Positions 2,745-63,545 of a stretch of DNA of 64,000 bases are shown one piece after another (within the stretch, counting starts at the first letter, position 1; each line of letters begins with the position of its first letter). A program made the position numbers and the translations under genes. Below the pieces are notes generated by a model, which had not been told where the DNA came from, searched no databases, and saw nothing but the letters and a program-made list of their open reading frames with translations. The stretch comes from Zopfochytrium polystomum. Lineage: Eukaryota > Chytridiomycota > Chytridiomycetes > Chytridiales > Chytridiaceae. The DNA is taken from contig JAIVFJ010000035.1 in assembly GCA_025765615.1 (NCBI GenBank), forward strand, positions 1 through 64,000. Reading direction: 5' to 3'.

Positions 2745-4846
2745 GGAAGAGCTTTTAGGGAGACCCCAGTTAAGACCATGATCAGTGAGATTAGGAATCT
2801 CACAAAAGGGTCTGGGTCAGTTTGACTTAAAGTTGGAGTTGCAGTTTGCAAAGGAGCAGTTTGCTGTTGCGACTCACCTGGGGCGTCCCCCGAAGGAGTC
2901 GGCACGTCCCTTCCAAGTTCTGCCCTGTCGAGACCAGTATGTCCCGTCAGAAGAGAAGGGTCCACAACATAAACATTCCCTTTGTCCCTGTGAGCAATGG
3001 TAAAGTCTGAACCATGTACCCGAGGATGTAATAGGGCTGTGTCTGCTGTGAAAGTCACGTTGTGACCTGTCTGCCGCACGATTTGCTGAACTGAGAGTAG
3101 AGTGTCTGAGAACTCTGGCACATAGAGCGAGTTCCTCATGATGAGAGCTCTTCCGTTAACGAACAGGGTGAAGTCGCCCACTCCAGTGGCAGTTGTAAAG
3201 CTCTCAGCTGTTTTGATCTGCTGGGAGGTGGGCCGCAAGTTTGTGAAGTGCTCTTCACAAGGTGACATTGTCCTGGAAGCCCCAGAGTCAAGGATGACCT
3301 GGTGTGGGTTGCTGCCAGCAAGTCTTGCCATCAGCGCAGTCTCGTAGATGCGGCGGTAGGTGACGTTGCGGTAGAGGAAACGCCCAGATTCGTACATCAC
3401 TTTGTAGCCGACGTTTGAGACAATGTTGTCAGTGATCCAGTCTGGATCCATTCTGCCGTCAAGAAGTGTAACTGTGAGTTCCACTTCAAATTCCTCCTCC
3501 ACCTCAACGGCCTGGCATGTTCCAATTTCAAACTCCTGTGCCGCAAGTGCCCTTTCTACTGAAAGGAAGTCGTCCAGAGCTGAAGTGTCTGCAAGGCGCG
3601 CAGCACCCTCAGTACTGAACTCCAACATTTCGACGTCTTCTGCTTCAGGAGGTGGTGATGGAGTATCCATCCTGTAGCATTTGTGGGGAGGAGAGTCCTC
3701 AGAGGCTGCGCAAGAGGCTTGGTGGTGTTCTTTAGCGGCCACCTCACGTGCAATCTTGGCAGTCTCAGTAGCTTTCTTGGAATCAGCTGACGTGGCCTTG
3801 GCTTCTTTGGCGTGTGCAGGCTGCTTGCCCTTGGCCTTCTTTGCAGGGCGAGCTGGCTCTGACTTCCCGTGAGGGAACTTGAGGCATTCCTCGCGAGAGT
3901 GCGAGACCCAGATTCCATGAAGGTCACAAGTAGGCTTGCCGTTGAGTGCCTCACCGATCTTGCGCTTCTTGGTTGCCACTGAGGTCTTTGCTGAAGCAGC
4001 TGTTTCCATCTCAGAAGTGCCGTGGTGAGCAGAGTGTCTGCTGTTCTTCTCTTTGCTTTGCTGGTACAGCGTGTGGCAGTTTGTCAACTCCTTGATGAGA
4101 TCGCTGGTGTTGGCGTAGTCTGACAGCCCCTTGAGAAGATTTTGACGAACGCCAGAGAAGATTTCATGTCCAGGCAGCGTTTCCCTTGCTTTGTGGATGA
4201 TGGCAGAACGCAGGATGTTTGTCACACCCCTGCAAGTGGTGGCAGTACATTTGAAATGCTTTGGCCAATCCGTGACCAGTGTGGTCAGAGTGGTGTACCA
4301 CTCCTGGACTGCCGGACCAGAGTCTCTGGGTTTTGCCAAACGACTGTAAGTCGCAAGCCACTTGTCCTGCTGTGAACCAGTGTGGTCCTGCAGGGTGTAC
4401 TTGTCATTGAGCCACTTGTACCGGTCAGCGCAGTTGGTGATGTTTGCTGCATTCATGGAGCGCACATCCTCAATGCGCAAGCAGGAGTCAAGGGTAGCAA
4501 CCGCCTTGTCGTGTTGGGCCTCAAGCTCCCTGTAGGTCTTGTGTTCTTGGCGTATACCAGTGTGGTACTTGTCAAGGGCAGCGTGGTGCAGACGGTACAT
4601 CTCACTGTACGCAGCCTTGGCCTCCGCCGTTGCAGAGGATTCAGGGGGAGAACCAATACTGGGAGGAGCAGCGCCGATGCCGACCTTGGTGCAGTGCTCG
4701 TTGAACGTACCGAAGTAATCAGGCTTGAGGAAGCTGGCAACAAGATTGTATGCCATGACCGGCTTGATGACTTCTTCCACATGCAGTTCCCAAGCCTGGT
4801 AGCCGTAAGAAGAGAAGCGGACAGCCTTGGGGGTCGAAGAAGACAT
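2745..4846 (-). CDS. Copia family C Gag and protease (5' part of gag-pol)
   Basis: About 700 codons from ATG at 4846 (MSSSTPKAVRF). The frame is open further upstream, but this Met begins recognisable Gag. Gag (about residues 1-330) is helical and carries a degenerate zinc-knuckle-like CDLHG...HSREEC. A Lys/Ala-rich linker follows, then an aspartic protease with the motif LDSGASRTMSP, the normal Asp-Ser-Gly. The protease then runs into the insertion at about 2745, so the element cannot make an uninterrupted polyprotein. It differs from copia A and B below, whose protease reads DNG. Gag and PR are still open, which suggests a fairly recent break. Confidence 0.75.
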
Positions 4847-5404
4847 GCTAGGTAGCGGCTTGGTGGACCAGTGGACTTGTTTAGAGCAGTAGCCCTTTTC
4901 TTGTAGAGAGCCAAGAGCCCTTTGTTGCCTTAAAGTGGCTGGTGAGCTGGTGCTCACAGACAGGTTGGTCTTGTTTAGAGTCAGAAACCCTTTTCTTGTA
5001 AGAGCAGCAGGGCCCTGTTCGAGCGTACAAGTGTGGCCGACGGCTTGTAGGTAGCTTTGTGATGAAATCCCACCCAGGACTGGAGGGACTTGGTGTGTGT
5101 GGGGATGAAGAGAGAGAGAGAGAGCAGTGATGATGGAAAAGGGAGAGGAGTGAGAGGATGGAGAGAGGAGAGAGGAGTGAGTGGGCAGAGAGGGAAGAGA
5201 GAGCAAATGGAGGAAGAGAGATTGGCTTGTTTTGCACTGGATTCTGTAAAAGCAGCAAGGAGGGGGTTGGATTCCTTGTTTGATCTCTGTGAGAGTTTGC
5301 TGCTTTTATACTCCTGCAGGTTGGAGCCATCAGAAAACAGAGGGAGCAGTGGGCTGCACAGAGCAGGCCACAGAAATGAGATAAAACAGGCTGAGCACCA
5401 ACCC

Positions 5405-16749: not shown

Positions 16750-19700
16750 TCAGCGCGCTTCACTAGCGTTTCGCACTTTCCTCCCACGGCGGGTTCCGTC
16801 GGACTCGCTTCCAGAGGAACTACGTCCGTCATCAATTCGGAATGCCTGAAACTGTTTGCGCTTTGCTCCTTCCATCACATCCGCCGAAGAGACAGTCTCT
16901 GCACCAACTGCTCGACCATCCATTAAGGCAGCGCTCAGTGCTTCTGGGAAGCATTCTTCCAAAAAACCAACCACAGCTCGTTCCGCGTCCTTGTTCTGGC
17001 TCATCCGCAGGTACCTCATCAACATCGCCACTAGATCTGGAGTAACGCCAGTGCTGGCATCCAATGGCGGAATGGTTTCCTCTCTTGCTGTCGAGGATAG
17101 ATCGACAAGAGCGCTGATCAGCTCTTCGCTCCACCCAAACTTCGCCATCATGCAGAGAGTGGCAGCGCGACCGCGTGAGTCAATCGGAAGCGATTCCTGG
17201 CGCACCATTTCCAAGACAGCCTTCGCCGACCCAGCCTTGCCCACATCTCGGACACATTCCAGCAGTGTTGTTACAGTTGAAGCTAGCGGTGCCGAAATGC
17301 TCGCTCTCTTTTCACCTTTTACGATAGCAGTGCCCGCGCCACCGGGCTGTTGCTCTTTCCCTGATGTTGGGTCCGAGGCCGACTTACTTGAGCGTTCCGA
17401 TACGGTTGTCACTGATCCCCTAAACGTCGACCACACCTTGACGGCTGAAACAAGGTCTCCGAACCAGTGATGAGCACGGATCATCTTGGCATAGCTCTCT
17501 TCCTTGAGGGAACATCCAGCTGCAACAAGCTCCCGATATATCTCTGCGCCAAGTATCCGCTTTTGCCGTGCCTCGAGGATGTCCGAAGTTGACAAAGAAC
17601 GGCTAGGGTCAAGAGCAGATGGCAGCGACGCCATGTACACGTCGGGAAGAATCCTAGCGCGGGAAGTTCCAACACGCCCAAACGCGCCACGACCGTGGGC
17701 ACCGGCGGGATCTGTCGCGCTCAGGGATGCTGTGCTGTCCATGCTCTCTGCACTGTCCAACAATGAAAGCATTACCCGCTCGAACTGGGATGACTGCGAT
17801 CGGATAACCAACTTTAGTTCCAGGCCCGACTTCACATTCTTCGCGTCGGCTCCTTTGCTTGCGCCTAACGACTGTCGCATAAGCATGATGGTCTCTGCTG
17901 CAGCAAGGTAATTTCGCCCGCGTACGTGCGCTTCAACAAGCTTGACAAACAAGTGAGGGTGTGGTTGCAGTTTGTTTTTCTCAACCATATTTTTGATGGA
18001 CTTGGCTGCCAGGTCAATCTTGTGGCAATCGATGAGAGCCTCGATAACGATGGAATGCGACTGCGCATTTGGAGGATTTGTTCGAAGTGCCATAACGTGA
18101 TGGGGTACACGGCGTACTGTTTTTTTCGACCCCGAGAAAGGAAGCGTCTCAATCGCTGCTGCAGGTTGAGGTCCTTCAGAGCATGCTTGCAGCCATCGTT
18201 CCCAATACTGCAGCAGTGCGTCGATTTCAAATTTCGATGCGAGACCTTTTAGCAGTTGATTCCGGATTTCCGCCGATACATTCGGCTGCCGAGATTCGAG
18301 GTCCTCGAAGACTCTTACCGCATCTTCAACTCGGTCAAGCTCGAAGTATCTGCTCATAATGACAGACTTGGATCGTGCTGCTAACGAGCTCTGGCTCTCT
18401 TGGATGTCGGCAGTGGCAACTTGAAGTTGGTTTTTCTCGATGTCTGCAATCATTCGCTCTGCTGCTTCCGGATTGCGTGAATCGCAAAGCCCCTTAACGA
18501 AAATAAATACTGTCAGACCATCGATGCTGCAGCCCATTTTGACCATTGACGATAGTGTCCGCCTCGCACCGTCCATGTCACCGGCTCTAATGTACCCATT
18601 TATTAGAGTCGAGAAAAACTTGGTGTCGGGAAGTGAATCTTGCGCGGCATTCGGCTTTCCGAAATTGAGGAGTGCATCACCGCGTAAGTTTTCGGCCCTT
18701 TCTAGGAACGCCTCGCACACGGATATTGCTTTATCTGGCAATTGCGCGTCCATCCACAGTTTCGCAATGGCCGTAGTATTCGCTGTATTCAGCACCAAAT
18801 TCCGCTCAGCCACAGCCGTTGCCGCCATATCCTCCACTTCTTGTGGCGTTTTCAGCTCACTGAGCACCTTGATGTAGATATTGAGGGTCCGTTGATCCCA
18901 AGGGACGCCCATGATGTCCATTATTTCAAGGTACTGTTGCGCCAAAAGAATTCGCTCCGCTTTCAGCAGCCCTTCCACCATGATGTTAAATGTTCGAGTT
19001 GTTGGCTTCACACCTTTCTCGATCATGTTGTCCAAAAACTGACGGGCACCATCCGATTTGTAGGCTGTGAAGTACGCTTCCAGCATAAGATCATACGTGT
19101 CAGCGTTTGGGGCGACGTGTATTTCCTTCCCGTCCACGTCGACAAATGAGCCTGCGGCAACCATTCTCGCCAAAACCTTTTTGGCGCCGGAAAAGTACGA
19201 GGATCGAACTTGGGATTCAAGCAGCAGGTTGTACCCTTCTGTGTCAAGCCTGAGCCCCAACTCTTCCGAATATTGGCAGACACGCTCCACAATCGCCTGA
19301 AGAGGCCGCGGTTTGCGTTTGACTTGCAAGCGGAGGAGGCTATTCACGTGCTTTCGTTGGAGAAGGTGGCGATCATTCTCAGACATACAGATGTCGATGA
19401 ACTTGTGGTAGGCGCTGACACGGTTGTTCAACTTCAACTCCTCCTCAAGGCCTTTCAAGTCGGCCGGCCGCACTTCCAGCATGGAATTGTGCAGGCTTAA
19501 CTCTTTGACACTATCGGAATCCAACGGGGTCAGTTCAATCACGTCACGATCATTGGCCCCCTTCAGGTCGCTACTGTCCCCGGAGTCGCTGTTGTTGGTC
19601 CCGAAATGTGATGGCTTTGTGGAAGCAGAGTTTGCATCCACTCGAACGTAGGCAGGGCTTATCATGGAAGGGTTGTATCGTTTTTGTGGTTTTCGACTAT

Positions 19701-19821
19701 GCTGCGAAGCTTGCGTTTGATCGGGACGTTCGCGCTGCAGTTGCATGGCGGTTGGGAGAGACGAAAAGGGGCGAGAAGCCAAAGGAGGGGCTTCTCGCAA
19801 AGGAGATGAGCACAGTATCAT
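16750..19821 (-). CDS. Pentatricopeptide-repeat (PPR) protein, probably mitochondrial
   Basis: Open frame of 1023 codons with no visible intron. PPR-type helical hairpins are clear around residues 190-225 (DTEGYNLLLESQVRSSYFSG), 238-272 (NADTYDLMLEAYFTAYKSDG), 273-307 (TTRTFNIMVEGLLKAERI) and 398-433 (DTKFFSTLINGYIRAGDMDG), with weaker repeats later. PPR proteins bind organellar RNA and act in its processing, stability or translation; the target is unknown here. From the first ATG the N-terminus is serine/arginine-rich. An alternative start upstream would add a strong presequence: ATG about 20153 (MNLRQILRTAAAARPKSFG), with a 56-bp GT-AG intron about 19843-19788. Divergently arranged with the AIM41-like gene. 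Confidence 0.85.
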   Translation of the reverse strand: MILCSSPLREAPPLASRPFSSLPTAMQLQRERPDQTQASQHSRKPQKRYNPSMISPAYVRVDANSASTKPSHFGTNNSDSGDSSDLKGANDRDVIELTPLDSDSVKELSLHNSMLEVRPADLKGLEEELKLNNRVSAYHKFIDICMSENDRHLLQRKHVNSLLRLQVKRKPRPLQAIVERVCQYSEELGLRLDTEGYNLLLESQVRSSYFSGAKKVLARMVAAGSFVDVDGKEIHVAPNADTYDLMLEAYFTAYKSDGARQFLDNMIEKGVKPTTRTFNIMVEGLLKAERILLAQQYLEIMDIMGVPWDQRTLNIYIKVLSELKTPQEVEDMAATAVAERNLVLNTANTTAIAKLWMDAQLPDKAISVCEAFLERAENLRGDALLNFGKPNAAQDSLPDTKFFSTLINGYIRAGDMDGARRTLSSMVKMGCSIDGLTVFIFVKGLCDSRNPEAAERMIADIEKNQLQVATADIQESQSSLAARSKSVIMSRYFELDRVEDAVRVFEDLESRQPNVSAEIRNQLLKGLASKFEIDALLQYWERWLQACSEGPQPAAAIETLPFSGSKKTVRRVPHHVMALRTNPPNAQSHSIVIEALIDCHKIDLAAKSIKNMVEKNKLQPHPHLFVKLVEAHVRGRNYLAAAETIMLMRQSLGASKGADAKNVKSGLELKLVIRSQSSQFERVMLSLLDSAESMDSTASLSATDPAGAHGRGAFGRVGTSRARILPDVYMASLPSALDPSRSLSTSDILEARQKRILGAEIYRELVAAGCSLKEESYAKMIRAHHWFGDLVSAVKVWSTFRGSVTTVSERSSKSASDPTSGKEQQPGGAGTAIVKGEKRASISAPLASTVTTLLECVRDVGKAGSAKAVLEMVRQESLPIDSRGRAATLCMMAKFGWSEELISALVDLSSTAREETIPPLDASTGVTPDLVAMLMRYLRMSQNKDAERAVVGFLEECFPEALSAALMDGRAVGAETVSSADVMEGAKRKQFQAFRIDDGRSSSGSESDGTRRGRKVRNASEAR

Positions 19822-20327
19822 AGAAGCTTAATGTTGGTGAGCTTACACAATAGTGGAAAGGAATCGTTGGGAAATAAGCGATAGAGGAAAGCTCGCGGAT
19901 TGAATTTGCTTCCACGACTATGGCAGCGAGCAGAGTGACTGAGAGGAGCGTCGAGCCAAGACCGGCTGTTGTATCCCCAGGAGGATGCTTCGGCAGCAAA
20001 TTCGACAGGCAGTGCTCTAGTTGGCGAGCCGCCGGCCACAGTTGCCGCAAAACACGATGTCAATGCAGATGACAACGACGACGACGACGACGATGCGCCG
20101 AACGATTTCGGCCGCGCTGCTGCTGCAGTGCGCAGGATTTGCCTGAGATTCATATCTTTCCAGAGTCTTCGTTGCAACGAGCGCACGCGGGGGGGAAATC
20201 CGGTAGAAGCTTAATGGCCAGTAGGCTGGCCAACGAATGGAACAAAGGCAAGAAAGAAAGAAGGCTGGGAAGGAGGAGAGACAAGCCGAAACCGAAAAAA
20301 TAAAAAAAATAAAAAGAGAAGACCAAT
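19822..20327. promoter_or_regulatory. Divergent promoter region (PPR / AIM41-like)
   Basis: About 500 bp between two head-to-head genes of probable mitochondrial function. The part 20153-19843 on the minus strand is open and reads like a mitochondrial presequence, so it may be a first exon of the PPR gene; the true shared promoter would then be about 20160-20327. No TATA box identified. Confidence 0.4.
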
Positions 20328-37978: not shown

Positions 37979-38509
37979 GTATGGCAGCGAAAGTGAATCG
38001 GATAACGATGTACAGCACGAAGTGTTGGAGGTGGCGGCACGACGGGATGGACTCCGTGTTACCGCAATTAACGCCATCTCCAGTGGGCTTTACCTACGAG
38101 CACTAAAGCCGGGGGACCAATCGGATGAGTGAGGGCGGCGACCGGCTCTGTGACTGCAGGCGCACTCTCAGCTGGGAGTGACGTGGGTGGCGCAACCGAA
38201 GGCCCTGGGCCATACCGACCCTGCGGGAGCTAGTGTGGCGTGGACCCAAGTCAGAAGGGACGGATGCCTGTTTGGGGAGCCCATTCCGTAAGGAACACCA
38301 CCAGGGGAGATAGGTCCCTTGGCGCCTGACGTTACGCATGGGGGAAAATGCGGAAGGCGGGCTGTGGAGAGAGGAAGAGAAGGCTCTCTGGCACGGGGTG
38401 TCCCGAGCCGCATCGTGCAGAAGGCTCACCTGCCAATGATTTTCTATTTCCTTTTTCTGCATCCTAATACTCACAAACACCTCTGTCATTTTACTAACAC
38501 CACCAAAGC
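37979..38509 (+). ncRNA. Structured intron between INT and RT (copia A, duplicate copy)
   Basis: Same 531-bp intron as at 51338-51868. 5' site cag|gtatgg, branch site tactaac at 38493-38499, 3' site caaag|cat, phase 0. Paired segments ggaggtggcg (38027-38036) and cgccatctcc (38072-38081) covary with copia B. Confidence 0.7.
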
Positions 38510-41426: not shown

Positions 41427-41665
41427 TGTTAGTTTTGGGTCTTTTGGTGTAAGCAGTGTGCAGGAGCTTTGACCTGATACTGCTCTGCAAGGATGACTTG
41501 CAGCATTTTGCAAGTGATGGTCCTTGTAACAGTTTTGTATAAAGACAAACACAAGACTGACAGAAGCCAAGATCAACCCCCCACCACCACCACCTTCAGT
41601 AGTGTACTCCACCCATCACCACAGCAGCACAACCCATAGACAATCCAGCCCAACGAAATCTTTCA
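41427..41665 (+). repeat. Copia B 5' LTR
   Basis: TGTTAGTTTTGGG to ATCTTTCA. Contains gtaacagttttgta (41526-41539) overlapping a tataaag that could be a TATA box. Confidence 0.95.
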
Positions 41666-42265: not shown

Positions 42266-43582
42266 ATGACTACTGACTCAACCAAGTATGTTGCCAAGTC
42301 CTTCAGCGTCTTGGAGGGACCAGAGAATTTCGGTGACTGGTTGGAGGATCTTACAGCAGAACTCTCCAACAAAAATGTCGACTTACGCCACTGCATTGAC
42401 ACAAGTCACATCAACGCAGAGCAGAATGATGCAATTGATCCACTAGACCTCCGCGACACTGGAACCTGTCTCATCAGAGATGGACCATTCCAAGGACAGA
42501 GATTCCAATTGGTGCCTCCGCCTCGTGGACAAGAGAAAGTAACTTGGTTTCCTGGTACACAGAACCAGAATGCACATTGCTGTCTAATTATTCGCCGCCA
42601 CATCTCTCGAGCCCTTCTCACCCAAATCACACCTGGTCGAAACTTTGCTTACGAGTTGGTTGGCGAATTGGGAATAATTTGCCGCACAGCAGACCAGGGA
42701 CTCGCAAAGGAGATCATTGACGACTTTGAACGCATCAAAATGGAACCAACTGAAGCCTCAGATGCCTTCATTACCCGATTCACTGAAGCATACCATCGAG
42801 TTGACAGCTTTGCAAAATCAGCAGCTGGAGAACTTCTCCATCGTATCCGCCCTTTCCAAAAAGTTGTTCGAATCTTTGTTGGTTCACTGAACCAAAGCCT
42901 ATTGGACATGGGGATAGGAAACGTTTTTCTTGTTGTCGGCAACCCAGCTCCTGAGATAACAAGTTTAGCCAAACTAATCTCACTCTTCAAACAAACTGTT
43001 CGTCAAAACAACTATGATAAGCGACGCATCGAGCTGGCAAATCAAAGAGAAGGGGACACCTCCACTGCAGCCCCTGAGGTCAACGCACCAACTGCAAATG
43101 TTGCCCAAGTTCACTATACCCACCCCCGAGGCCGTGGAAGCTATCGACCGCTCCAACCAAGGCCACAGCCATACACCCCACGACCCTATGGTGGCTTTGG
43201 CAGAGGGTCCACTCCACTCTCTCAAGGAAGTTGGCGACCCCAGCAGATGGGATGGCGACTCCAGCAAAGTGGATGGCGACCACAGCAACCATTCCGTCCA
43301 CACCAGAGCCGGGCATCTGCAAATGTCACCTGCAACAATTGCAGTGGTCGTGGACATTATGCAAGGGAATGTCCTTCAGCTGCAAACGTGCAGGAGCAGA
43401 TGCCTCAGCAATCCCAGCAGGCACTCCTAACATACAGTGCACCAGCAGACAGTGATTGGGATGAACAACAGAGTCAGCAGTTTGCAAACGAACAGCAGTT
43501 ATGGGAAGAGACTTACAACTCACAGCTTGGCGGCCAAAGTGACGACAACCACCAACAGGATTTTTGGATGGCCCGGGAGTGA
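42266..43582 (+). CDS. Copia B Gag
   Basis: 438 aa from ATG 42266 (MTTDSTKYVAKSFSVLEG). A helical capsid-like region (FGDWLEDL, TADQGLAKEIIDDFERIK, YHRVDSF) is followed by an Arg/Gly/Gln-rich segment and a CX2CX4HX4C zinc knuckle, CNNCSGRGHYAREC (about residues 353-366), for RNA binding and packaging. It ends DFWMARE at TGA 43580-43582, inside the gag/pol overlap. Codon identity with the 3' half of copia A gag is high around the C-terminus. Confidence 0.92.
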   Translation: MTTDSTKYVAKSFSVLEGPENFGDWLEDLTAELSNKNVDLRHCIDTSHINAEQNDAIDPLDLRDTGTCLIRDGPFQGQRFQLVPPPRGQEKVTWFPGTQNQNAHCCLIIRRHISRALLTQITPGRNFAYELVGELGIICRTADQGLAKEIIDDFERIKMEPTEASDAFITRFTEAYHRVDSFAKSAAGELLHRIRPFQKVVRIFVGSLNQSLLDMGIGNVFLVVGNPAPEITSLAKLISLFKQTVRQNNYDKRRIELANQREGDTSTAAPEVNAPTANVAQVHYTHPRGRGSYRPLQPRPQPYTPRPYGGFGRGSTPLSQGSWRPQQMGWRLQQSGWRPQQPFRPHQSRASANVTCNNCSGRGHYARECPSAANVQEQMPQQSQQALLTYSAPADSDWDEQQSQQFANEQQLWEETYNSQLGGQSDDNHQQDFWMARE

Positions 43583-43590
43583 TCCGGGCA
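43558..43590 (+). promoter_or_regulatory. Copia B gag/pol -1 recoding signal
   Basis: In the gag frame GAT TTT TGG; after the T5 run (43561-43565), ggatg separates it from a hairpin gcccgg (43571-43576) / ccgggc (43584-43589) with a 7-nt loop holding the gag TGA. Pol is in the -1 frame. Copia A has the same layout with TAA in the loop. Confidence 0.6.
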
Positions 43591-46500
43591 TTTGCAGTCA
43601 ACATTCCACCTCCTGTTACTTCCTTTCCTCTTCTTATTGATAACGGTTGCAATGTTACTACTCTTCGTGATTTCTCCTTCTTTATCCCATCAACCTTCAA
43701 CAACCAAAAATCCAGCATGCGCATCGCAAAGGAAGGCCCAGTTCTCAACTGCGAGGGCTCAGGCGTTGCACGAATTCCTCTTGCAAACAACATCACTCTC
43801 ATTATTGAAGGCGCGCAGTTTGCTCCAGAATGCCCAGTCAACCTTATTGCCGACAGGGACCTCCAGCTATGCGGTTACTATCACTTGGCACGAGACCTCC
43901 AACCAGGTGTTATTCACCGCAGCAGTCATGAAGAAGGTGACCCAGCAGTTCTTCAAATGATCCTTCGGCACGGTCTCCAGTGGTTCCCAACTGCAGCAAA
44001 CCCAACCTTCAATTACAGCACTCAATTTCTCGCCCATTGCGCCAGCAGATATTACAACTTTTTCACGTCAGCAGAACCTGCAGACACACACAGCATTCGT
44101 GCAGCATTTCTCAACAGCAAAAAACCAGACACTCGCCGACTGCACCAACGTCTAGGACACATTCCCTATGCTCGACTTCGCTCCATGAAGGAACGACGAA
44201 CCTGTGCTGACTTTCCAGACATAGACTTAGAACTGCTTGAGGACGAGTGTAAGGCCTGTATTATTGCAAAGCAGACACGTGCCTCTATTCCCCACACAGA
44301 TCCTCCGGACAAGCTACCTGGGGAACACTTGGCGTTTGACCTTGTGGAGGTCAAACCCAAGTTCAGGGGGCAGTATGGCTTTGCCCTCATTGCCATTGAC
44401 TATGTCAGCAATTATATCTGGTCAACCAACCTACGACGGAAGTCTGATGCTTTACCAGAAGCCATCAAAATCATTCAGCAACTCCAGACTGTGCGAGACG
44501 TTCAGGTTAAGTCAGTTAGGTTTGATGGGGGTGAACTTAAGTCAACTGCCTTTGAACGCTTCTGTGCCTCTCGTGGGATACGGGTTGAAGTCAGTCCACC
44601 ACACACACCAGAGCTCAACGGCAAAGCAGAACGTGCAGTTAGGACAGTCATGGATGTAACTCGTTCACTCCTTCAGCATGCTGGCTCACCTTGGTCTTGG
44701 TGGGGTTATGCTATTCGACATGCCGTGGACATCATCAACACACTGCCAGTTCTCAGTCGTGGTTTGCTTTCACCGGTTGAAATGCTACTTGGCTTTCCTC
44801 CCTGCATCAGCCACTTTAGGGTTTTTGGCGCTGGTTGCCTCTACCATGTGACAGCCAAGGAACGCGGCAGCACACACCAGTACAAGAAACTGGCAGAACG
44901 AGCACGACCAGCAATATACATTGGCAATATAGGCCGATCCATTGCCCGGCTCATCGACATCAACACTGGTCGCGTTATCACACATCGCCTCAACGACCTC
45001 ACTATCGCCGAAGACAGCTTTCCCAAACTCAACAAATCAGATGCTGATGATGACAGTTCAGAACTACAGCATCACCACACGCCCTTACTCTCAGCTGACG
45101 AACTTCAGGAAACCAACAGCAACATCAAGGCCCTCCTTCGCGAAGCAAACGTACACATTGAACAGCTACCTGAGCCAGAACCAACACCAGTGGCCCCAGT
45201 GGAATTGGTAAAAAGTGTCACCCCTCAGGTAAGCACAGCGAAAGTGAATCAGATAACGATGTACAGCTCTGGTGTTGGAGGTGACGGCATGATGGGTTGG
45301 ATTCCGTGCTACTGCAATTAACGTCATCTCCAGTGGGCCTTATTGGGAGCACTATAGGCGTGACTGAGGGAGACCGGATCGGGGGGTAGACCGGCAATGT
45401 GAAGCAACCGAAGGCCCACGACAACCGAAGCCCCAGCTCGTAGGCTAGTGTGGCCCAGACCTGTGTCAGAGGAGGTGGAGTCCTGAGCAGGGAGCCCATT
45501 CCGTGAGGAGCACCAACCAGGAGACAGTTATTCTCCTGATGTGCCCAGGCGAGACGCGGGGGGTAGCGTTGAGGGCAAGCTGTGTATGGGGGAGTGGTTG
45601 CCTCACCTCATAGGGTACTGGGGGGAGCCCAGACCAGCATCGTGCGGAAGGCTCACCTGTGCATTTCATCCTTGCTTACTTTTGTGCGTTGGATATCTGA
45701 GACTGTTATAACTAATTCCTCCAAAGTCCCTACAAGATAAAACAATGGCAGACACACCCACTAGGGATGCCTCACAGGCTTCTCCACCTCCAGAACCACC
45801 TCCACCAGAACCACCTCCTCATCACCAACATTCACGTTCACCATCACCTGACAACTCAGCCAAGCGTACGCGTTCTGGGCAAACCTACCTCACAAGCACA
45901 ACATGTCCCGACCCCCAAACTCGTGCAGAAGCCATGTTGGGTAAATGGTCCAAGGAGTGGATTGCAGCAGAGCAGACTGAGATCGATGCCCTTCGCACTT
46001 TAGCAGCCTTTGAAGTTGTGGAACGGCCCACCAACATCAACGTCGTGCAGAACAAATGGGTCTATAAGGTCAAACTTAAACCAGACGGCAGCATTGAGCG
46101 CTTCCGTGCACGGCTTGTGGCTAAGGGCTTCACTCAACGTTATGGCATTGATTTTTGGAATACTCACTCTCCTGTTGTCCGAATCAACAGTCTTCGTTGG
46201 CTCATTGCCATGGCGGCTGCAAACAACTGGCACACTGCTATTGTCGACATCAGCAACGCGTACCTGAACAGCATGCTTGATGTGCCCATTTACATGGAGC
46301 AGCCAGATGGCTACCGCAGTGATGGCAAGGTATGGCTACTGAAGAGAGCTGTTAATGGTATCAAGCAAGCCGGCCGGTGTTGGTACCAAGAACTGATTAG
46401 CCACCTGAAGTCGAATGGATATCAGCAAAGCACAGCAGACCCCTGTATCCTCTTCCGTCAAGTGGATGGAAAAGTCATTTTCATTGCCATCTATGTTGAT

Positions 46501-47445
46501 GATATTTGTTTCTTTGGGGATTCTGGGGAGATCACCTTTGCCATCACACTGCTAAAATCTCGTTACAAGCTCCGCGAAATAGGAACAATCAAAACCATCC
46601 TCAATATGCAACTGGAACACCGCCACAACGGAATCTTCTTGCACCAGAAAGCCTATATCAAGGAATTACTTCAACGCCATGCCAACACTATCAACAATCG
46701 CACTGCAGTAACTGCCCTTCCCAGTAGTCTCAATCTTCACCCACGTGGGATCGACGAAGCAGCTGCAGACCAGAGACTGTACCAGGCAATCCTTGGCGGC
46801 ATCAACTACCTTGCAACACACACGCGGCCAGACCTTGCCCCAGCAGTTTCCTACCTTGGTGCCTTCAGCAAGGACCCTAGCAAGCAACACATGAAGATCC
46901 TTATTCGGGTTCTCGAATATCTCAACAGTACTAGTGAGTATGGTTTATTCTATTCTTGCAACTGCACAGATATAGCCGGTTACTCCGATGCTGCCCATGG
47001 TGTCCACTCAGATGGGAAATCACAGCTTGGCTACTATGTTCTATTTGGAGGAACAGCTATTAGTTGGACATCTGTTCGAAGCAGCACTGTCATGCTGTCA
47101 CCGCAGGAAGCTGAATATGTAGCGGTGTCTGAACTGGGACGAGAACTTAAGGCACTGTCCCAACTCTATTCAGCACTTCAACTTCCGTCTCCCACTCCTC
47201 TTGTCATCTACACTGACAACAGCGGTGTGATCAACCTCAGTTCAAATGATCTTTACACCAATCGGTCAAAGCATATCATGGTAAAGTATCATTATATTCG
47301 AGAACTTGTGAAACAAAAAGTAGTACGGCTTGAGTGGATTGCTGGAGGAGAACAGCCTGCAGACTATATGACGAAATCTCTCTCAGCTGTTCTCAGTGAA
47401 TACCATTTGAGTCGTATTGGCCTTTGTTTCTTCTCTTTCCTCTGA
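43558..47445 (+). CDS. Copia B Pol: protease, integrase, RT, RNase H (intron-containing)
   Basis: Exons about 43558-45228 and 45727-47445, phase 0. The protease has LIDNGCNVTTL, so Asn replaces the Ser/Thr usual after the catalytic Asp. The integrase has an HHCC zinc region (RLHQRLGH ... CKACIIAKQ) and D-D-E core (LAFDLVEVKP, VRFDGGELKS, ELNGKAERA). The RT has IYVDDICFFG; RNase H has GYSDAAHGVHSDG, SPQEAEYVAVSE and YTDNSGVINLSSN. The unspliced message stops at 45321. A Met (MADTPTRDASQ, 45745) near the start of the RT exon could allow separate initiation, but copia A has Ile there, so splicing is the better explanation. Confidence 0.9.
45229..45726 (+). ncRNA. Structured intron between INT and RT (copia B)
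   Basis: 498 bp. 5' site cag|gtaagc, branch-like taactaat (45709-45716), 3' site caaag|tcc, phase 0. It is far longer than the 42-94 bp host introns. The interior is GC-rich and conserved with copia A: ggaggtgacg (45277-45286) pairs with cgtcatctcc (45322-45331), where copia A has a compensated G-C for A-U change. A later hairpin (caggag/ctcctg near 45520-45540) is replaced in A by ccaggg/cccttgg. The blocks gcccattccgt and gcatcgtgc with gaaggctcacctg are shared. Confidence 0.72.
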
Positions 47446-47705: not shown

Positions 47706-47944
47706 TGTTAGTTTTGGGTCTTTTGGTGTAAGCAGTGTGCAGGAGCTTTGACCTGATACTGCTCTGCAAGGATGACTTGCAGCATTTTGCAAGTGATGGT
47801 CCTTGTAACAGTTTTGTATAAAGACAAACACAAGACTGACAGAAGCCAAGATCAACCCCCCACCACCACCACCTTCAGTAGTGTACTCCACCCATCACCA
47901 CAGCAGCACAACCCATAGACAATCCAGCCCAACGAAATCTTTCA
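47706..47944 (+). repeat. Copia B 3' LTR
   Basis: 239 bp, same ends as the 5' LTR at 41427. Confidence 0.95.
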
Positions 47945-48253: not shown

Positions 48254-49673
48254 ATGAGCGAGCGTGATCAAATCAAGTATGCTTCCCGTGCATTCCCCAT
48301 CCTCAAAGGCGCAGCAAATTTTGGAGATTGGCTGGACGACCTAATTTCAGAACTATCCAACAAAAGCAATGGTCTCCGCCACTGCGTCGACCCAGACCGA
48401 ATTAACGTATTACACAATGATCAAGTGGACCCCAATGATCCTAATGTCGGCCCAACATGCAGAGTACGCAGGGGGCCCAACCACAGCGAGCATTATGCAT
48501 TTGCACGAGACGGGCGTGAGCCAGTCAAATGGTTCCCAGGGACAGAAGACCAGAACGCATACTGTATCCTTCTCATTCAACGACATGTTGAACCAGAGCT
48601 TCTACCACAGTTCCCCCGACGAGGGCAGATATTTGCCCACACACACTGCTTGGAGAAATTGCGATTGCATGTCGAACAACAGATCAAGGATTAGCAAAGG
48701 AAATTATTGATGATTTCGACATATAAAAATGGAACCTGCAGAATCATCCGAGTCATTTGCAATGCACTTCATTACAGCTTACCACAAAGTAGAAAGCTTT
48801 GCAGGAAGCTCATCAGTGGAAATCCGCAGTCGCATCACACCATTTTCCAAAGTTGTGCGAGTCTTCGTATCTGCCCTGAACAACACGCTAATCGATATGG
48901 GTGTTGCCAATACGTTCATGTTTGCAGGGAATCCTATCACTTCTGTTTCATCATTGACTAAACTAATCACCTTATTTAAATCTACCGCCCGCCAAAATAC
49001 ATATGATGAGAGGCGGGATCGACTTGCAGCACAACAGGAGCGGGACCTGACAACAGCCATTCCAGAAGTCACTACACCAACAGCAAATGTAATTATTCGG
49101 CCAAAAGTACACTATAGTCAACTCCGCGGTCGTGGCAGTTATCATAAACTTCAGCAGTACCAGCCGTATCCTAATATCCGCCCAACAACCTTGCAGTACC
49201 AAAACCCTCAGTCCCAACAGTACACACCGCGCCCATATGGTGGTTTTGGCCGAGGCCGAGGAACATGGCGAGGACTAAGTTCACATGGAACAGCAACAGG
49301 TGGTACCGCAATAGGACGCGGCTCTGGGGGGAGTTGGTACCCTGCACAGCAACAGTCTTTTGGAGTCCAATGTCATGCATGTGGAGGCTATGGTCATGTT
49401 GCTCGACAGTCTGCCAACACATTTCTTCAGCAATTGCAGCAACAGCAACAGAATAGACCACCAGCAAACCCAAATGCGCTCTTACTCCAGCAACCAAACC
49501 CTCCACAACAGCAGATACCTGAAAATCAAGCACTTCTGCTACAGAACGGTGATTGGGATGACCAGCAAAGTGAGCAGTATGCTGCAGAACAGCAATTGTG
49601 GATGGAAACGCAACTCCAATCAGAGACCGAACAAGATGAAAGTCAACAGGATTTTTGGATGGCCCGGGAGTAA
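48254..49673 (+). pseudogene. Copia A Gag, frameshifted
   Basis: Starts MSERDQIKYASRAFPILKG. The first frame ends at 48694, but the homologous text continues in another frame (GEIAIACRTTDQGLAKEII) and shifts again near 48720 to KMEPAESSESFAMHF; copia B is uninterrupted there. The zinc knuckle reads CHACGGYGHVARQS, so the fourth ligand Cys is Ser. A Gln-rich region follows. It ends DFWMARE at TAA 49671-49673. Confidence 0.85.
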
Positions 49674-49680
49674 TCCGGGC
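49649..49680 (+). promoter_or_regulatory. Copia A gag/pol -1 recoding signal
   Basis: T5 run 49652-49656, 5-nt spacer, hairpin gcccgg (49662-49667) / ccgggc (49675-49680) with loop gagtaat containing the gag stop TAA. Confidence 0.58.
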
Positions 49681-52600
49681 ATTTGCAGTTAACGTCCCTT
49701 CCCTTCCAATTTCTTTTCCTGTACTCATCGATAACGGTTGCAATGTCACAACACTTCGAGATTTCTCTCTCTTCATTCCCTATGGTTATACTCAGCAGAA
49801 ATCTAGCATGCGTATCGCCAAAGAAGGACCTATTCTTACTTGTGAAGGATTCGGCACAGCTCTCATACCACTCGCTAACAACATCACACTTATAATTGAA
49901 GGTGCCCAATATGCTCTAGAATGTCCTGTCAACTTGGTCGCTGATCAGGACCTACAACTATGTGGCTTCTTCCATCTTGCACGAGACCTTCAACCTGGTA
50001 CTATTTATCGTAGCAGTCCTGAGGAAGGAGATCCAGCCGTCCTTCAAATGACTCTTAGACATGGTCTCCAATGGTTCCCAACAGCAGCAAACCCCAACTT
50101 CAACTACAGCAAACAATTTATTGCACACTGTGCCAGTAAATTTTACAACCTCTTCAGCTCTGCAGAACCAGTTGATACACTCAGTATACACACAGCCTTT
50201 CTCAACAGCAAAGCTCCAAACACTCAGCGCATGCATGAACGCCTCGGCCATATCCCTTATGCAAGACTACGAGCAATGAAGGAGCGCCGTACATGTGCTG
50301 ACTTTCCTGACATTAAGCTGGACTTACTTGAAGAACCATGTAAGGCCTGCATTATTGCCAAACAGATTCGTGCTGCTATTCCACATACAGATCCTCCAGA
50401 TAAACTACCAGGCGAACATTTAGCCTTTGATCTAGTGGAAGTCAAACCAAAGTTTCGAGGACAATATGGCTTTGCTCTCATTGCCATTGACTATGCAAGT
50501 AATTATCTCTGGTCGACAAACCTTCGGAGAAAGTCAGAAGCACTACCGGAGGCCATTAAGATCATCCAACAATTGGAGACAGTTAGGGATGTTCGTGTAA
50601 AGGGCGTCCTCTTTGATGGTGGGGAACTGAATTCACTTGCTTTTAACCGTTTCTGTGCATCACGTGGCATCCGCGTTGAAGTCAGTCCACCTCATACACC
50701 TGAGCTGAATGGGAAAGCAGAGCGAGCAGTTCGAACAGTCATGGATGTCACACGATCTCTTCTAAGACATGCTGGTTCACCATGGTCATGGTGGGGATAC
50801 GCGATTCGACATGCAGTAGATATCATCAATACACTTCCTGTCCTCAGCTGTGGATTACTATCTCCAGTTGAAACGCTTCTTGGATTCCCTCCATGCATCA
50901 GTCAATTCAGAGTTTTTGGCTCAGGATGTTTGTATCATATCACAGCAAAGGAACGTGGACAAACACATCAGTTTAAAAAGCTTGCAGAATGCGCCCGACC
51001 AGCAATTTACATTGGAAACATTGGTCGTTCCATTGCTCGTTTGATTGACATCAGCACGGGTAGAGTAATCACTCATCGATTGGATGACCTTGTGGTTGCA
51101 GAAGACAGTTTCCCTCGCCTCAGCACCTCAGCAGCAGAGGATATTGCTCAGGACCTCGTTCATCAGCTAACACCACTCCTCAGCAAAGATGAACTTACAT
51201 CAACTGAACAAAACATCACCAACCTCCTTCGTGAAGCCAATGTTCGCGTGGATCAATTCCCAGAACCAGGACCAGCAGCGGTAGCTGAACGACAACCTTC
51301 CACAGAACTAGCACCAAATGAACATGAAGTGGTCCAGGTATGGCAGCGAAAGTGAATCGGATAACGATGTACAGCACGAAGTGTTGGAGGTGGCGGCACG
51401 ACGGGATGGACTCCGTGTTACCGCAATTAACGCCATCTCCAGTGGGCTTTACCTACGAGCACTAAAGCCGGGGGATCAATCGGATGAGTGAGGGCGGCGA
51501 CCGGCTCTGTGACTGCAGGCGCACTCTCAGCTGGGAGTGACGTGGGTGGCGCAACCGAAGGCCCTGGGCCATACCGACCCTGCGGGAGCTAGTGTGGCGT
51601 GGACCCAAGTCAGAAGGGACGGATGCCTGTTTGGGGAGCCCATTCCGTAAGGAACACCACCAGGGGAGATAGGTCCCTTGGCGCCTGACGTTACGCATGG
51701 GGGAAAATGCGGAAGGCGGGCTGTGGAGAGAGGAAGAGAAGGCTCTCTGGCACGGGGTGTCCCGAGCCGCATCGTGCAGAAGGCTCACCTGCCAATGATT
51801 TTCTATTTCCTTTTTCTGCATCCTAATACTCACAAACACCTCTGTCATTTTACTAACACCACCAAAGCATACCCCTGATGACAAAACAATTGCTGAAACA
51901 CCAACTAGAGACCTACCACCTCAAGCGCCACCACCAGAACCACCACCAACAGAGCCTCCACCTACACATGTGCGCAAATCACCGTGCAGCCCTACGCGCA
52001 GCCCATCTCCAAAACATACTCGATCCGGACATCTATATTTAACCAGTGTCAAATGTCCAGACCTGGTAACACGCACTGAGGCCATGAGTGGAAAGTGGTC
52101 CAAAGAGTGGATTGCAGCAGAGCAAACAGAGATTGACGCTCTCAGAATGCTTGCAGCCTTCGAAGTCGTTGATCGACCCAAGAATGTCAATGTCGTGCAG
52201 AACAAATGGGTTTACAAGGTCAAGCTTCGACCGGACGGCAGCATTGAGCGCTTTCGCGCACGACTAGTGGCGAAGGGCTTTACACAGCGTCGTGGCGTTG
52301 ATTTCTGGAACACTCACTCTCCTGTTGTTCGCATCAATAGTCTACGATGGCTCCTTGCTATGACAGCCTCAAACAGTTGGGACACAGCTATGGTCGATAT
52401 TAGCAATGCCTACCTCAACAGCAAACTTGATGTCCCCATCTACATGGAGCAACCAGATGGCTACCGTTCGGATGGCAAGGTCTGGCTTTTGCACAAAGCT
52501 GTCAACGGTATCAAGCAAGCGGGGCGTTGTTGGTACCAGGAACTCATTGGTCGTCTCAAATCTGCCGACTACCAACAAAGCGCAGCAGATCCGTGCATCC

Positions 52601-53592
52601 TCTTCAAGCGCACAAAGGAACGTATTATTTTCATTGCTATCTATGTTGATGATATTTGTTTCTTTGGGCACACAGAGGAAATCACCTCTGCCATCAATTT
52701 GCTAAAATCCTTCTATAAGCTCCGCGAACTAGGTCATATCAAGACCGTACTGAATATGGAAGTTCATCAAACACCAACTGGCATTTACTTGCATCAACGA
52801 GCTTACACCAAAGAGTTACTCCAACGCCATGCAGACCTAGTCAATGGAAAGAAGACAGCAGTAACTGCTCTCCCCAGTCCTCTCACTCTTCAACCTCGAG
52901 AAAATGATGAACCCACAGCAAATCAACAGCTCTACCAAGCAATCCTTGGTGGCATCAACTATTTGGCAACACACACACGACCAGACTTGGCACCAGCAGT
53001 CTCATATCTTGGCGCCTTCAGCAAGGACCCAAGCAAACACCACTTGCAGATCCTCATTCGAGTCCTTCAATATATCAATGGTACACGTGAGTATGGTTTG
53101 CTTTATTCCAACACAGGGTCTGGAATTTTTGGCTACTCGGATGCTGCTCATGGAGTTCATGCTGATGGGAAATCACAACTTGGCTACTTCGTTTTGTTTG
53201 GAAATACCGCTATCAGCTGGGCATCAACTTGCAGTCCTACAGTTATGCTGTCACCTCAGCAAGCAGAATACATTGCAGTCTCAGAACTAGGACGAGAACT
53301 GGAGGCCATCTCACAACAGCACACAGCACTTATGCTCCCATCCCCAACTCCTATTCCAATCTATACTGACAACCAAGGCGTCATCAATTTGAGCTCAAAC
53401 GATCTCCACACTAATAGGTCAAAACATATTCTGGTTAAGTATCACTATATCAGGGAACTGGTTGATCGACAAGTGATTCGACTGGAATGGATTCATGGTG
53501 GCAAGCAACCAGCAGATTATCTTACAAAATCATTACCAGCTGCTTTAGGTGCTTACCATCTTAGTCATATTGGTCTTTGTCGTGTGCCTTAG
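49649..53592 (+). CDS. Copia A Pol: protease, integrase, RT, RNase H (intron-containing)
   Basis: Exons about 49649-51337 and 51869-53592, phase 0, both open. Protease VLIDNGCNVTTL (again Asp-Asn-Gly); integrase zinc region (RMHERLGH ... CKACIIAKQ) and core (LAFDLVEVKP, LFDGGELNS, ELNGKAERA); RT with IYVDDICFFG; RNase H with AAHGVHADGK, SPQQAEYIAVSE and YTDNQGVINLSSN. The unspliced frame stops at 51355, six codons into the intron. Intact pol with broken gag suggests either recent gag decay or help in trans. Confidence 0.88.
51338..51868 (+). ncRNA. Structured intron between INT and RT (copia A)
   Basis: 531 bp, 5' site cag|gtatgg, branch site tactaac, 3' site caaag|cat, phase 0. See the copia B intron for the shared paired blocks. 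Splicing joins ...NEHEVVQ to HTPDDKTIAETPTRD, matching TPQ | SLQDKTMADTPTRD in copia B. Confidence 0.72.
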
Positions 53593-60774: not shown

Positions 60775-61260
60775 GATTGCTGGAGGCAATCTGGCAGCAA
60801 TCTGGAGTCAATCTGACGATGATCTGACGACAATCGGATGATGATCTGGCAATCTGACAACAATTGGGCGTTCTGGTAACAATCTGGAGTCAATCTGGCG
60901 ACAATCTGATGATGATATGATGATCTGGAGACAATCTGACGAAAATCTGACGTTGACCTGACGATGATGTGACAAGCTGACGAAGATCTGACGTCAATCT
61001 GACGATCTGGAGTCAATCTGATGAAGATCTGATGTCAATCTGATGATCTGGAGTCAATCTGACATTGACCTTACGATGGTCTGACGATCTGATGAAGATC
61101 TGATGTCAATCTGGCAGTGTCAAGGCGGTGGAGGGTGGTGGTGGAGGGTTCTGGAGTCAATCTGAAGTCAATCTGATGATGATCTGACGATCTGACAACA
61201 ATCTGATGTTGATCTGACATTGATCTGGCAGTGGGAAGGTGGTGGAGGGCAGTGGCAAGG
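60775..61260 (-). repeat. LINE 5' leader minisatellite (right)
   Basis: Longer array of cagattg / cagatcatc units than in the left LINE. Part of it stays open in frame with ORF1. Confidence 0.75.
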
Positions 61261-61650: not shown

Positions 61651-62956
61651 CAGGGGGGGGACAAAAGTTTCCGGGCACTTGCTGTGCCACCAAAATTTCG
61701 CTCAACATGAGCCATCCAATTCCACAAAACTTAATTGTATTTCAAGCAAAAAGAACGTGATGGTTCGAAAGTCTGGTCAATAGTCTGTTGGCCCTCCATC
61801 GCTCTCAATAGTAGCTTGCATCCTTGCAGGCATACTCTTCACTAATGATTGGAGGAACTGGGGTTCAATTTCCTGCCAAGCTTTTCGAACTGACTTTTTC
61901 AACACCTCGAGGCCAAGCGGTCGGTCTTCTGATATCTGATCTTTAAGTCGAGCCCAGAGATTCTCTATGGGGTTCAAATCCGGGCTTTGAGCGGGCCAGT
62001 TCATGATAGGCAAGCCCTTGTCTTTGAACCAAGCTTTAACTTTCAGGGCTGTGTGAGCTGGTGCATTGTCATGCTGATAGATCAGGCTGTTCTCAAGAAA
62101 CTCCTCGTCGGCATTCTGTTCATCCAAATATTCAATAAAGACTTGAAGTTGACCATCCAAAATGTCAATATACTGCGAGCTGTTCAGTCGCCCGTCAATG
62201 AATGCATAGCTTCCTGCAATCGAACCGCGGAAACAAGCCCAAATTGAGAACGACTGGCGGCCACTCTTCACTGTTGCTTGAAGACATTCTGGTTTGAGCT
62301 TTTCACCAGCACTGCGCCAAACACGGACCTGCCCCTGCGCTCCAGTCTCAAAGCTGGCCTCATCAGTCCAAATTACCTTCTCCCACTCTTCAACGGACCA
62401 CCTGACATGCTCCTTAGCAAATTCAAGCCGTTTACGTCGATGCTCTGGCTTTAGATAGGGCTTTTTGGCTGCAAGACGGTTGAAAATCCCCTCCTCATGA
62501 AGTACACGTCGAACAGTCCTCGTTGAAACGGGATCGTCACGAGCGGAATTCAACTGATTTGTAAGGTCGCCAAGTGTTTGCCTTCTGTTTGATGCAGATC
62601 CCTTTGTAGCTCGAACCAAATAACGGCGATTGTTCTCTGAGAGCTTGCGAGGCCGTCCGGAACGGGGCAGGTGAGTGAGACTGCCAGTGTTCTCATAGCG
62701 CGCAATTATATCCTGGACCGTTGACTTTGGTACAGTTGTGTCATTGGCGATCTCACGGGTGCTCTTCCCGTTGTTGTGCATCGCAATCAGCGTCTTGCAC
62801 ACGCCAAGATCATTCTTCACTCTCTTTGCTGTCCCCATGTCAAATGTCGAGGCGATTGCTCCGAGTTTGGTGAGATCGTCAATGGGGCAGTGCAGATCGA
62901 CGAGCTGGCGGTGGAGGGTGGCACAGCGGTGCCCGGAAACTTTTGTCCTCCCCCTG
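61651..62956 (-). mobile_element. Tc1/mariner element, 1306 bp, apparently intact
   Basis: Terminal inverted repeats: cag + G-run, then acaaaagtttccgggcac at the left and its complement at the right ending ccccctg. Flanked by TA at 61649-61650 and 62957-62958, the Tc1 target. The transposase frame is uninterrupted. Confidence 0.93.
61777..62838 (-). CDS. Tc1-type transposase (DD34E)
   Basis: 353 aa from ATG 62838 (MGTAKRVKNDLG). Longer upstream readings start outside the TIR and are not plausible. The N-terminal paired-like helix-turn-helix domains (KSTREIANDTTVPKSTVQDI; HLPRSGRPRKL) bind the TIRs. The catalytic triad is Asp in VIWTDEASF, Asp in YQHDNAPAHTA and Glu in SPDLNPIENLW with 34 residues between the last two, the DD34E spacing of Tc1. 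It would cut and paste the element in the nucleus. No stop or shift seen, so it may be active. Confidence 0.93.
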   Translation of the reverse strand: MGTAKRVKNDLGVCKTLIAMHNNGKSTREIANDTTVPKSTVQDIIARYENTGSLTHLPRSGRPRKLSENNRRYLVRATKGSASNRRQTLGDLTNQLNSARDDPVSTRTVRRVLHEEGIFNRLAAKKPYLKPEHRRKRLEFAKEHVRWSVEEWEKVIWTDEASFETGAQGQVRVWRSAGEKLKPECLQATVKSGRQSFSIWACFRGSIAGSYAFIDGRLNSSQYIDILDGQLQVFIEYLDEQNADEEFLENSLIYQHDNAPAHTALKVKAWFKDKGLPIMNWPAQSPDLNPIENLWARLKDQISEDRPLGLEVLKKSVRKAWQEIEPQFLQSLVKSMPARMQATIESDGGPTDY

Positions 62957-63014
62957 TACAGTGGGAAAATCGTTCCGCGATCGTACAAATCACACAAATC
63001 ACACAAAATCCACG

Positions 63015-63545
63015 ATGCAGAGACGTGCTCACAACAATCCCACCACCTCTTTCATCTTCTTGGCCCTGAGCAGAGGGACATCGCCGAAAACCATTCACAG
63101 GCGCTTCAACATGCACCAAGAACCCCTGCATTCACTGTTTTGGAAAGAATCCTTTCGCTTCAGCAAGGATGAGATGCTCGAGCTCGTTGGCCTCCTCGAA
63201 GTGCCTGATCCAGTCATCACTCAGAACCAACTCGTTGCATCAGCATTTGAAGCACTGAGTATGACTCTCCAGCGGCTGGCGTATCCAAATCGACTGGCAG
63301 ATCTGGAACGAGTGTTTGACCAGCTGAAGTCAGCCATTTCGCAGTTCACCAACATAGTTATAAGCCACATCTACGAACGGTTCAAACATCTTCTTGTTCT
63401 GGATACTTTGATTAACAAAAAAAAAAGGTTGACTCTTTTGCAGATGCTGTTCACTGTGCTGGTGCTCCGCTCCAGACTTGTGTTGGTTTTATCGATGGAA
63501 CAGTATGTGGAATAAGCCTCCCACAGCAAAATCAAAAGGTGGGAG
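63015..63545 (+). pseudogene. PIF/Harbinger-like nuclease, N-terminal part, frameshifted
   Basis: From ATG 63015 (MQRRAHNNPTT): SFRFSKDEMLELVGLL, EALSMTLQRLAYPNRLADLE and HIYERFKHLL fit the N-terminal region of Harbinger (HARBI1-type) transposases. After the A10 run (63417-63426) the frame must shift by one to continue as VDSFADAVHCAGAPLQ and the first catalytic Asp in GFIDGT. Beyond LPQQNQK (about 63538) similarity stops at a possible 5' splice site gtggga. The catalytic C-terminal part is not found in the window. Confidence 0.75.

Follow-up and report, generated by a model that had tools for sequence, protein, structure and literature searches.

How does an intron survive in an element that is copied through RNA, and how can one RNA serve such an element as both genome and message? 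These questions are raised by a stretch of 64,000 nucleotides from the chytrid Zopfochytrium polystomum (contig JAIVFJ010000035.1, positions 1 to 64,000; hereafter, the window). Two families of copia retrotransposons in the window, referred to as A and B, carry a non-coding block between the regions for integrase (INT) and reverse transcriptase (RT). A first-pass annotation, made from the letters alone, had described this block as a phase-0 intron with a conserved and covarying RNA structure.

The elements and their intron-like blocks

The window contains one family B element with both LTRs and, beside it, two family A copies that are present in part (Table 1). Because the 239-nt LTRs of the B element are identical and are accompanied by a GTATC target duplication, the insertion is recent. 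In both families, matches to the Pfam domains gag_pre-integrs, rve and SH3_retrovirus lie upstream of the block, and the match to RVT_2 lies downstream. PR and RNase H, which have no Pfam match, are recognized from their motifs. The resulting order of GAG, PR, INT, RT and RNase H, together with the LTRs and the target duplication of B, is that of Ty1/copia elements.

Table 1. Features of the A and B elements in the window, with helices given in the coordinates of the B element
Feature	Position	Strand	Remarks
B element, 5′ LTR	41427..41665	+	preceded by GTATC; 239 nt, identical to 3′ LTR
B gag	42266..43582	+	zinc knuckle, PF00098; from translation
B pol exon 1, PR + INT	43543..45228	+	Pfam gag_pre-integrs, rve, SH3_retrovirus
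B putative −1 frameshift signal	43558..43589	+	GGATTTT 43558-43564; stem 43571-43576/43584-43589
B intron-like block, INT/RT boundary	45229..45726	+	498 nt, phase 0, GT-AG, branch motif
P1 closing stem, 5′ strand	45233..45238	+	intron positions 5-10; overlaps 5′ splice site
P2 hairpin	45276..45332	+	arms 45276-45286/45322-45332; hairpin of the first-pass annotation
P3 arm	45343..45458	+	45343-45360/45439-45458; encloses P4, 45385-45399/45405-45416
P5 hairpin	45460..45491	+	45460-45469/45483-45491; three double changes A vs B
P6 hairpin	45518..45538	+	45518-45522/45534-45538; two double changes A vs B
P7 hairpin	45549..45576	+	45549-45557/45566-45576; four double changes A vs B
P1 closing stem, 3′ strand	45657..45662	+	partner of 45233-45238
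Less conserved tail	45663..45726	+	branch motif AACTAAT, 3′ splice site
B pol exon 2, RT + RNase H	45727..47445	+	Pfam RVT_2, 182 bits
B element, 3′ LTR	47706..47944	+	GTATC directly after; target duplication
Second A copy, intron-like block	37979..38508	+	530 nt
A pol exon 1, PR + INT	49640..51337	+	Pfam domains
A intron-like block	51338..51867	+	530 nt, phase 0
A pol exon 2, RT + RNase H	51868..53592	+	RVT_2, 185 bits

The gag region of one family A copy (48254-49670) matches P0121 in two frames, and its gag frame is therefore interrupted; P0121, from Z. polystomum, is a Gag-type protein of family A, with stretches up to 97% identical to the copies found here. Family A copies are also involved in two inverted repeats, both 100% complementary, of 3134 nt (33919-37052/52091-55224) and 2032 nt (35021-37052/38732-40763), which reflect either a recent duplication or an assembly artefact. 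Elsewhere in the window are a Tc1-like transposase (61780-63051, minus strand; HTH_Tnp_Tc3_2 and DDE_3), other retroelement remnants (328-1747 and 2738-5302, minus strand; matches to SH3_retrovirus and Pol_BBD), a host protein with PPR repeats in a single frame of 1025 aa (16753-19827, minus strand), and degenerate direct repeats at 60800-61127, with spacings of 11, 30, 41 and 71 nt.

The borders of the B block read CAG/GTAAGC at the 5′ end and AACTAATTCCTCCAAAG/TCC at the 3′ end. Its coordinates, its GT-AG ends and its phase are those of the first-pass annotation, as are the spliced translations of A and B, while the ends of the A blocks had been placed one base too far (51868 and 38509, rather than 51867 and 38508). 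The branch A lies 11 nt from the 3′ site in A and B, as had been claimed, and 12 nt from it in a third family, C. That is, despite a difference in length of 32 nt, A and B have in common the features by which a spliceosomal intron is recognized in sequence, namely GT-AG ends, a branch motif, and a reading frame that is restored upon removal, here in phase 0. Among the loci that were fetched, 71 blocks have more than 93% of their length covered by a reference, and are nearest to A (31), B (17) or C (23); since these loci were found via the block, they are uninformative as to how often it is absent. The GT is lost in two of the 71, both from family A (L028 and L029), with TT instead at the 5′ splice site, and the AG is lost in five, all from family C (L042, L051, L052, L068 and L073).

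The sequence that follows the junction is under coding constraint. The 66 codons that can be aligned between A and B, from the junction to a conserved EAM, differ at 16 first, 14 second and 44 third positions, and this concentration of changes at the third position indicates that they are translated. Family A has no ATG between the junction and the EAM, and hence the reading frame enters from upstream. For comparison with host introns, for which a range of 42-94 nt had been stated, we examined one PHAF1-like host gene, in which the statement holds: its five introns measure 64, 59, 89, 43 and 42 nt, and splicing raises its Pfam score to 187 bits, from 92.8 bits for the largest of its single frames. 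Compared with these introns, that of the elements is longer by a factor of about six to twelve. Rfam scans (to E-values of 5 and 10) gave no match to a group I or group II self-splicing intron, and none to a known RNA near its gathering score. Considering its sequence features, we infer that the block is an intron in the spliceosomal style, and that it is spliced.

What each RNA would encode depends on the junction of gag and pol. In B, the two overlap, with pol opening in the −1 frame from 43543, and the overlap contains GGATTTT, which we assume to be a plausible −1 slippery heptamer, followed by the stem GCCCGG/CCGGGC. Family A has an equal slippery site and stem from about 49649, differing only in the stop codon. 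The gag/pol overlap thus likely carries a −1 frameshift signal, in which case the spliced RNA would encode Gag-PR-INT-RT-RH, and not RT-RH alone. Of the coding scheme proposed earlier, the translation of the unspliced RNA into Gag-PR-INT is retained; the assignment of RT-RH only to the spliced RNA is not, as the −1 overlap would give the whole Gag-Pol.

Conservation and covariation within the block

Although non-coding, the interior of the block is conserved, as had been reported. A and B are 74.3% identical over 474 aligned columns, compared with a mean of 66% and a maximum of 71% for 50 shuffles processed with the same permissive aligner, and with 36.7% (226 sites) and 43.8% (208 sites) at four-fold degenerate sites in the two exons. 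The identity is uneven, ranging from 58 to 88% per window; the first three 50-nt windows are at 88, 84 and 82%, and the first 150 nt at about 85%.

To assess the pairing, a consensus structure was derived from 25 of the 71 blocks (8 B, 6 A and 11 C), to the exclusion of 46 blocks among which near-duplicates were frequent. The energy of this consensus is −85.6 kcal/mol, as against −52.3 kcal/mol (sd 4.8) in 100 column shuffles, and it includes 20 double-changed pairs, as against 8.5 (sd 2.45) in 100 shuffles. When one B and one A row are folded together, the energy is better than in all 200 + 200 permutations, and the double changes are in modest excess, being reached by 13 and 7 of 200 permutations. 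Tests of the A/B pairing that are free of circularity were obtained by evaluating each fold in a sequence held out from it. With the fold of the 19 B and C rows, 99 of 127 are paired in A_L009, where 80.7 (sd 3.9) are expected and none of 1000 permutations reaches this value; conversely, with the fold of the six A rows, 105 of 143 are paired in B_L002, where 92.9 (sd 4.3) are expected and 3 of 1000 permutations do so.

A core model was then defined by the 67 pairs that recur in at least five of seven folds. Between B_L002 and A_L009, 45 of these pairs are the same, 7 have changed on one side, 15 are double changes, and none is broken; that is, pairing is kept in all 22 core pairs that differ. 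Over the 25 rows, 96.4% of the 1670 cells pair, a value that falls to 37-42% when the columns are slid by 1-3. A first consensus of 93 pairs, with long-range helices 7-9 and 14-16, was dropped, these helices being lost in the two- and three-row folds. Some measures gave no signal: the number of further pair types is not in excess of shuffles (50 versus 51.3), and in the core model paired sites do not change more slowly than unpaired sites (p 1.0 for B versus C; 0.22 for A versus B). The stability of single sequences was abandoned as evidence, because 58 of 100 shuffles of B fold as well as B itself (z 0.27); A alone is somewhat more stable than its own shuffles (z −1.87; 4 of 100 as good). The compensation between ggaggtggcg and cgccatctcc to which the first-pass annotation had drawn attention is real, with columns 58 and 98 holding A-U in 19 rows and G-C in 6. 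Judged by these alignments, the interior of the block is a conserved, structured RNA with covariation beyond chance, as borne out by the shuffles, the held-out folds and the changes in the core pairs; the support for covariation comes essentially from two distant lineages.

Among the individual helices, P2 shows one double change between A and B, is present in at least five of the seven folds, and has a probability of 0.82-0.99 in eight of nine single-sequence rows; P6 exceeds 0.8 in seven of the nine. The P3 arm, with P4, shows three double changes. P1, the closing stem, pairs GCACAG with CTGTGC in B and TGGCAG (intron positions 4-9) with CTGCCA in A, and thus shows two double changes. In local shuffles, a perfect 6-bp match of this kind turns up at frequencies of 0.037 for B and 0.016 for A. 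Its probability is 0-0.1 in all nine single-sequence rows, 0.21 in the three-row fold, 0.94 in the 25-row fold, and 1.0 in the two-row fold. In C, where the stem is one of 5 bp that begins at position 7, the first six bases of the intron stay unpaired. P1 lies 3-6 nt from the 5′ end and 52-61 nt from the branch point, with linkers that total 56-64 nt. The predicted stem is therefore backed by comparison and not by single-sequence folding, and its position in A and B overlaps the 5′ splice site.

A search for intron-free copies, and the chimeric family C

No match to patterns spanning the joined junction, at up to three mismatches, was found in 80.2 Mb. Likewise, the junction is crossed by none of the 41 (B) and 40 (A) matches to joined flanks of 150 + 150 nt; this search scored the best 40 of 137 and 40 of 192 candidates, among which a young intron-free copy would rank first, while an old one could escape. 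Some of these matches extend two bases beyond the junction, owing to the AG that precedes the exon. As intron-free copies were not found, the RNA that is copied back into DNA appears to be the unspliced RNA, and to this extent the data agree with the earlier proposal that intron-bearing RNA is the genome. In the genome, the 5′ motif of the block is present at 260 places and the 3′ motif at 280 (at up to three mismatches); with a defined intron and named stems, these places document the kind of RNA that was copied.

For other RVT_2 matches in the same genome, among the best 150 of 987 candidates, the frame is uninterrupted and up to 1950 aa long. Judged by frames only, this suggests that there are also copia families that lack the intron. 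More diverged families of the block were not found among the best places listed for this genome, nor did viral contigs yield any relatives when searched with the RT protein and with the block pattern. In a protein search with RT, the nearest named chytrid is Chytriomyces confervae, at 46% identity, and a metagenome protein is at 48%. One relative, P0001, known from the protein alone, has INT and RT in a single annotated protein.

Family C, a non-autonomous family related to B, is chimeric; one copy of it was mapped (L055 with L079 and L080; G000:C4:131000-139600). Relative to B, this copy retains the LTR and leader at 95%, pieces of gag, the block at 87%, an RT patch at 75%, and the region from RNase H to the LTR at 88-92%. 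The PR-INT region is absent, with no match to B from about 43047 to 45200, and the frames upstream of the block are rich in stops. In L041, L057 and L068, the ends of the block are mixed, of B and C type, which suggests recombination between families.

A model for the block, its alternatives, and known systems

Taking together the intron anatomy, the reading frames, the conservation, the covariation and the failure to find an intron-free copy, we favor, with a probability of about 0.58, the view that the block is an inefficient spliceosomal intron that forms part of the life cycle of the element, with an RNA domain that keeps splicing in check, labels the genomic RNA, or does both. The unspliced RNA would direct synthesis of Gag and, via the −1 frameshift, of Gag-PR-INT, and the same RNA would be reverse transcribed. 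A fraction of the RNA would be spliced, joining INT to RT in phase 0, to yield Gag-PR-INT-RT-RH. The first 430-460 nt of the intron would form the conserved multi-arm domain, in which P1 would tie the 5′ splice site end to sequence 52-61 nt upstream of the branch point; the end of the 5′ site would thereby be hidden, and some RNA would escape and be spliced. The domain may also mark the unspliced RNA for export or packaging. Because P1 is located at the 5′ splice site, the domain is most likely a brake or a switch on splicing, and the position of this closing stem suggests splicing control no less than it suggests packaging. If this is true, the synthesis of reverse transcriptase would be subject to a further control that does not apply to integrase, in addition to the frameshift. 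A further elaboration, which we put forward only tentatively, is that the RNA is spliced into a reverse transcriptase message when open, and that relatives without integrase retain the domain in order to be carried along.

It is rather unlikely, in our estimate, that the domain mainly serves the unspliced RNA, as an export element akin to CTE or RRE or as a packaging signal, and that splicing control is secondary. Such a signal must be intronic so that only the genomic RNA bears it, which is in line with the failure to find intron-free copies and with the mapped C copy, where block, LTR, leader and 3′ end persist without PR-INT. The rates of change between B and C are also as this explanation would have them, with 34 differences at 433 sites in the structured part, 19 at 65 in the tail, and 41 at 254 third codon positions of RT/RH. 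However, retention of the block in C is weak evidence, because remnants of RT and RNase H are retained too. Moreover, the leader (19/599) and the 3′ end (5/256) are better conserved than the whole block (52/498), as if packaging signals resided there; within C, the block (96-97%) changes no more slowly than its flanks (92-98%); and the Gag proteins of A and B are 43% identical over the part compared (339 aa).

We regard as improbable a scheme without splicing, in which the block would act in internal ribosome entry or reinitiation, so that RT-RH is made separately on the full-length RNA. A large structured RNA does precede an open RT-RH frame, and in B an ATG lies in frame seven codons past the junction, but A has ATT at that position, and the next methionine that the two families have in common lies after a stretch already under coding constraint; in addition, the GT, the AG, the branch motifs and phase 0 would all be due to chance. 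Little weight, to a similar degree, is given to the notion that the intron is an ordinary one, that A and B are alike through recent exchange between elements, and that the structure is incidental. Exchange does seem to occur, given the mixed B/C block ends and the patchwork of parts at about 95, 92, 87 and 75% in the C copy. The identity between A and B is patchy, though, and exchange fails to explain why the differences between them keep the pairing.

The retroviral RRE and CTE are structured RNAs that serve unspliced or partly spliced RNA. The block resembles them in being structured, albeit without any Rfam match, and by analogy might have a role in export. In Drosophila copia, partial splicing produces a Gag-only message. 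Bianca is a lineage of Ty1/copia. Among the titles and abstract openings surveyed, which covered few subscription papers, we found no description of a copia element whose INT and RT are separated by an intron, nor of a covarying RNA within a retrotransposon intron.

The nearest known kind is the intron of Ogre, a plant Ty3/gypsy element with a mean spacing of 274 bp, in which the whole polyprotein is also made (PMC6317226). The superfamily and the position differ: the Ogre intron falls between GAG-PROT and RT, and here the order is that of copia and the intron is between INT and RT, so that the elements are not of the Ogre type but would work alike. In Bianca, two frames are separated by 172 bp on average, and the split falls after GAG or GAG-PROT, rather than between INT and RT as in A and B (PMC6317226). 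With regard to the closing stem, zipper stems in yeast are reported to shorten the path from the 5′ splice site to the branch point, with linkers of 42-85 nt and poor sequence conservation (PMC12350175). The linkers of P1 (56-64 nt) fall within this range; yet P1 is 3-6 nt from the 5′ end, closer than the minimum of 10 nt given there for a yeast zipper, and so would more likely hinder splicing than help it. BARE1, whose intron is 104 nt (PMC3735527), and EVADE are Ty1/copia elements with partial splicing, in which spliced and unspliced RNAs have different fates (PMC3735527, PMC8892269). In Arabidopsis, full-length EVADE RNA is held back in the nucleus through retention of its intron (PMC8892269), and thus intron retention alone can sort RNA. 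Splicing of BARE1 and EVADE leads to a Gag-only message (PMC3735527, PMC8892269), whereas splicing in A and B would add RT-RH.
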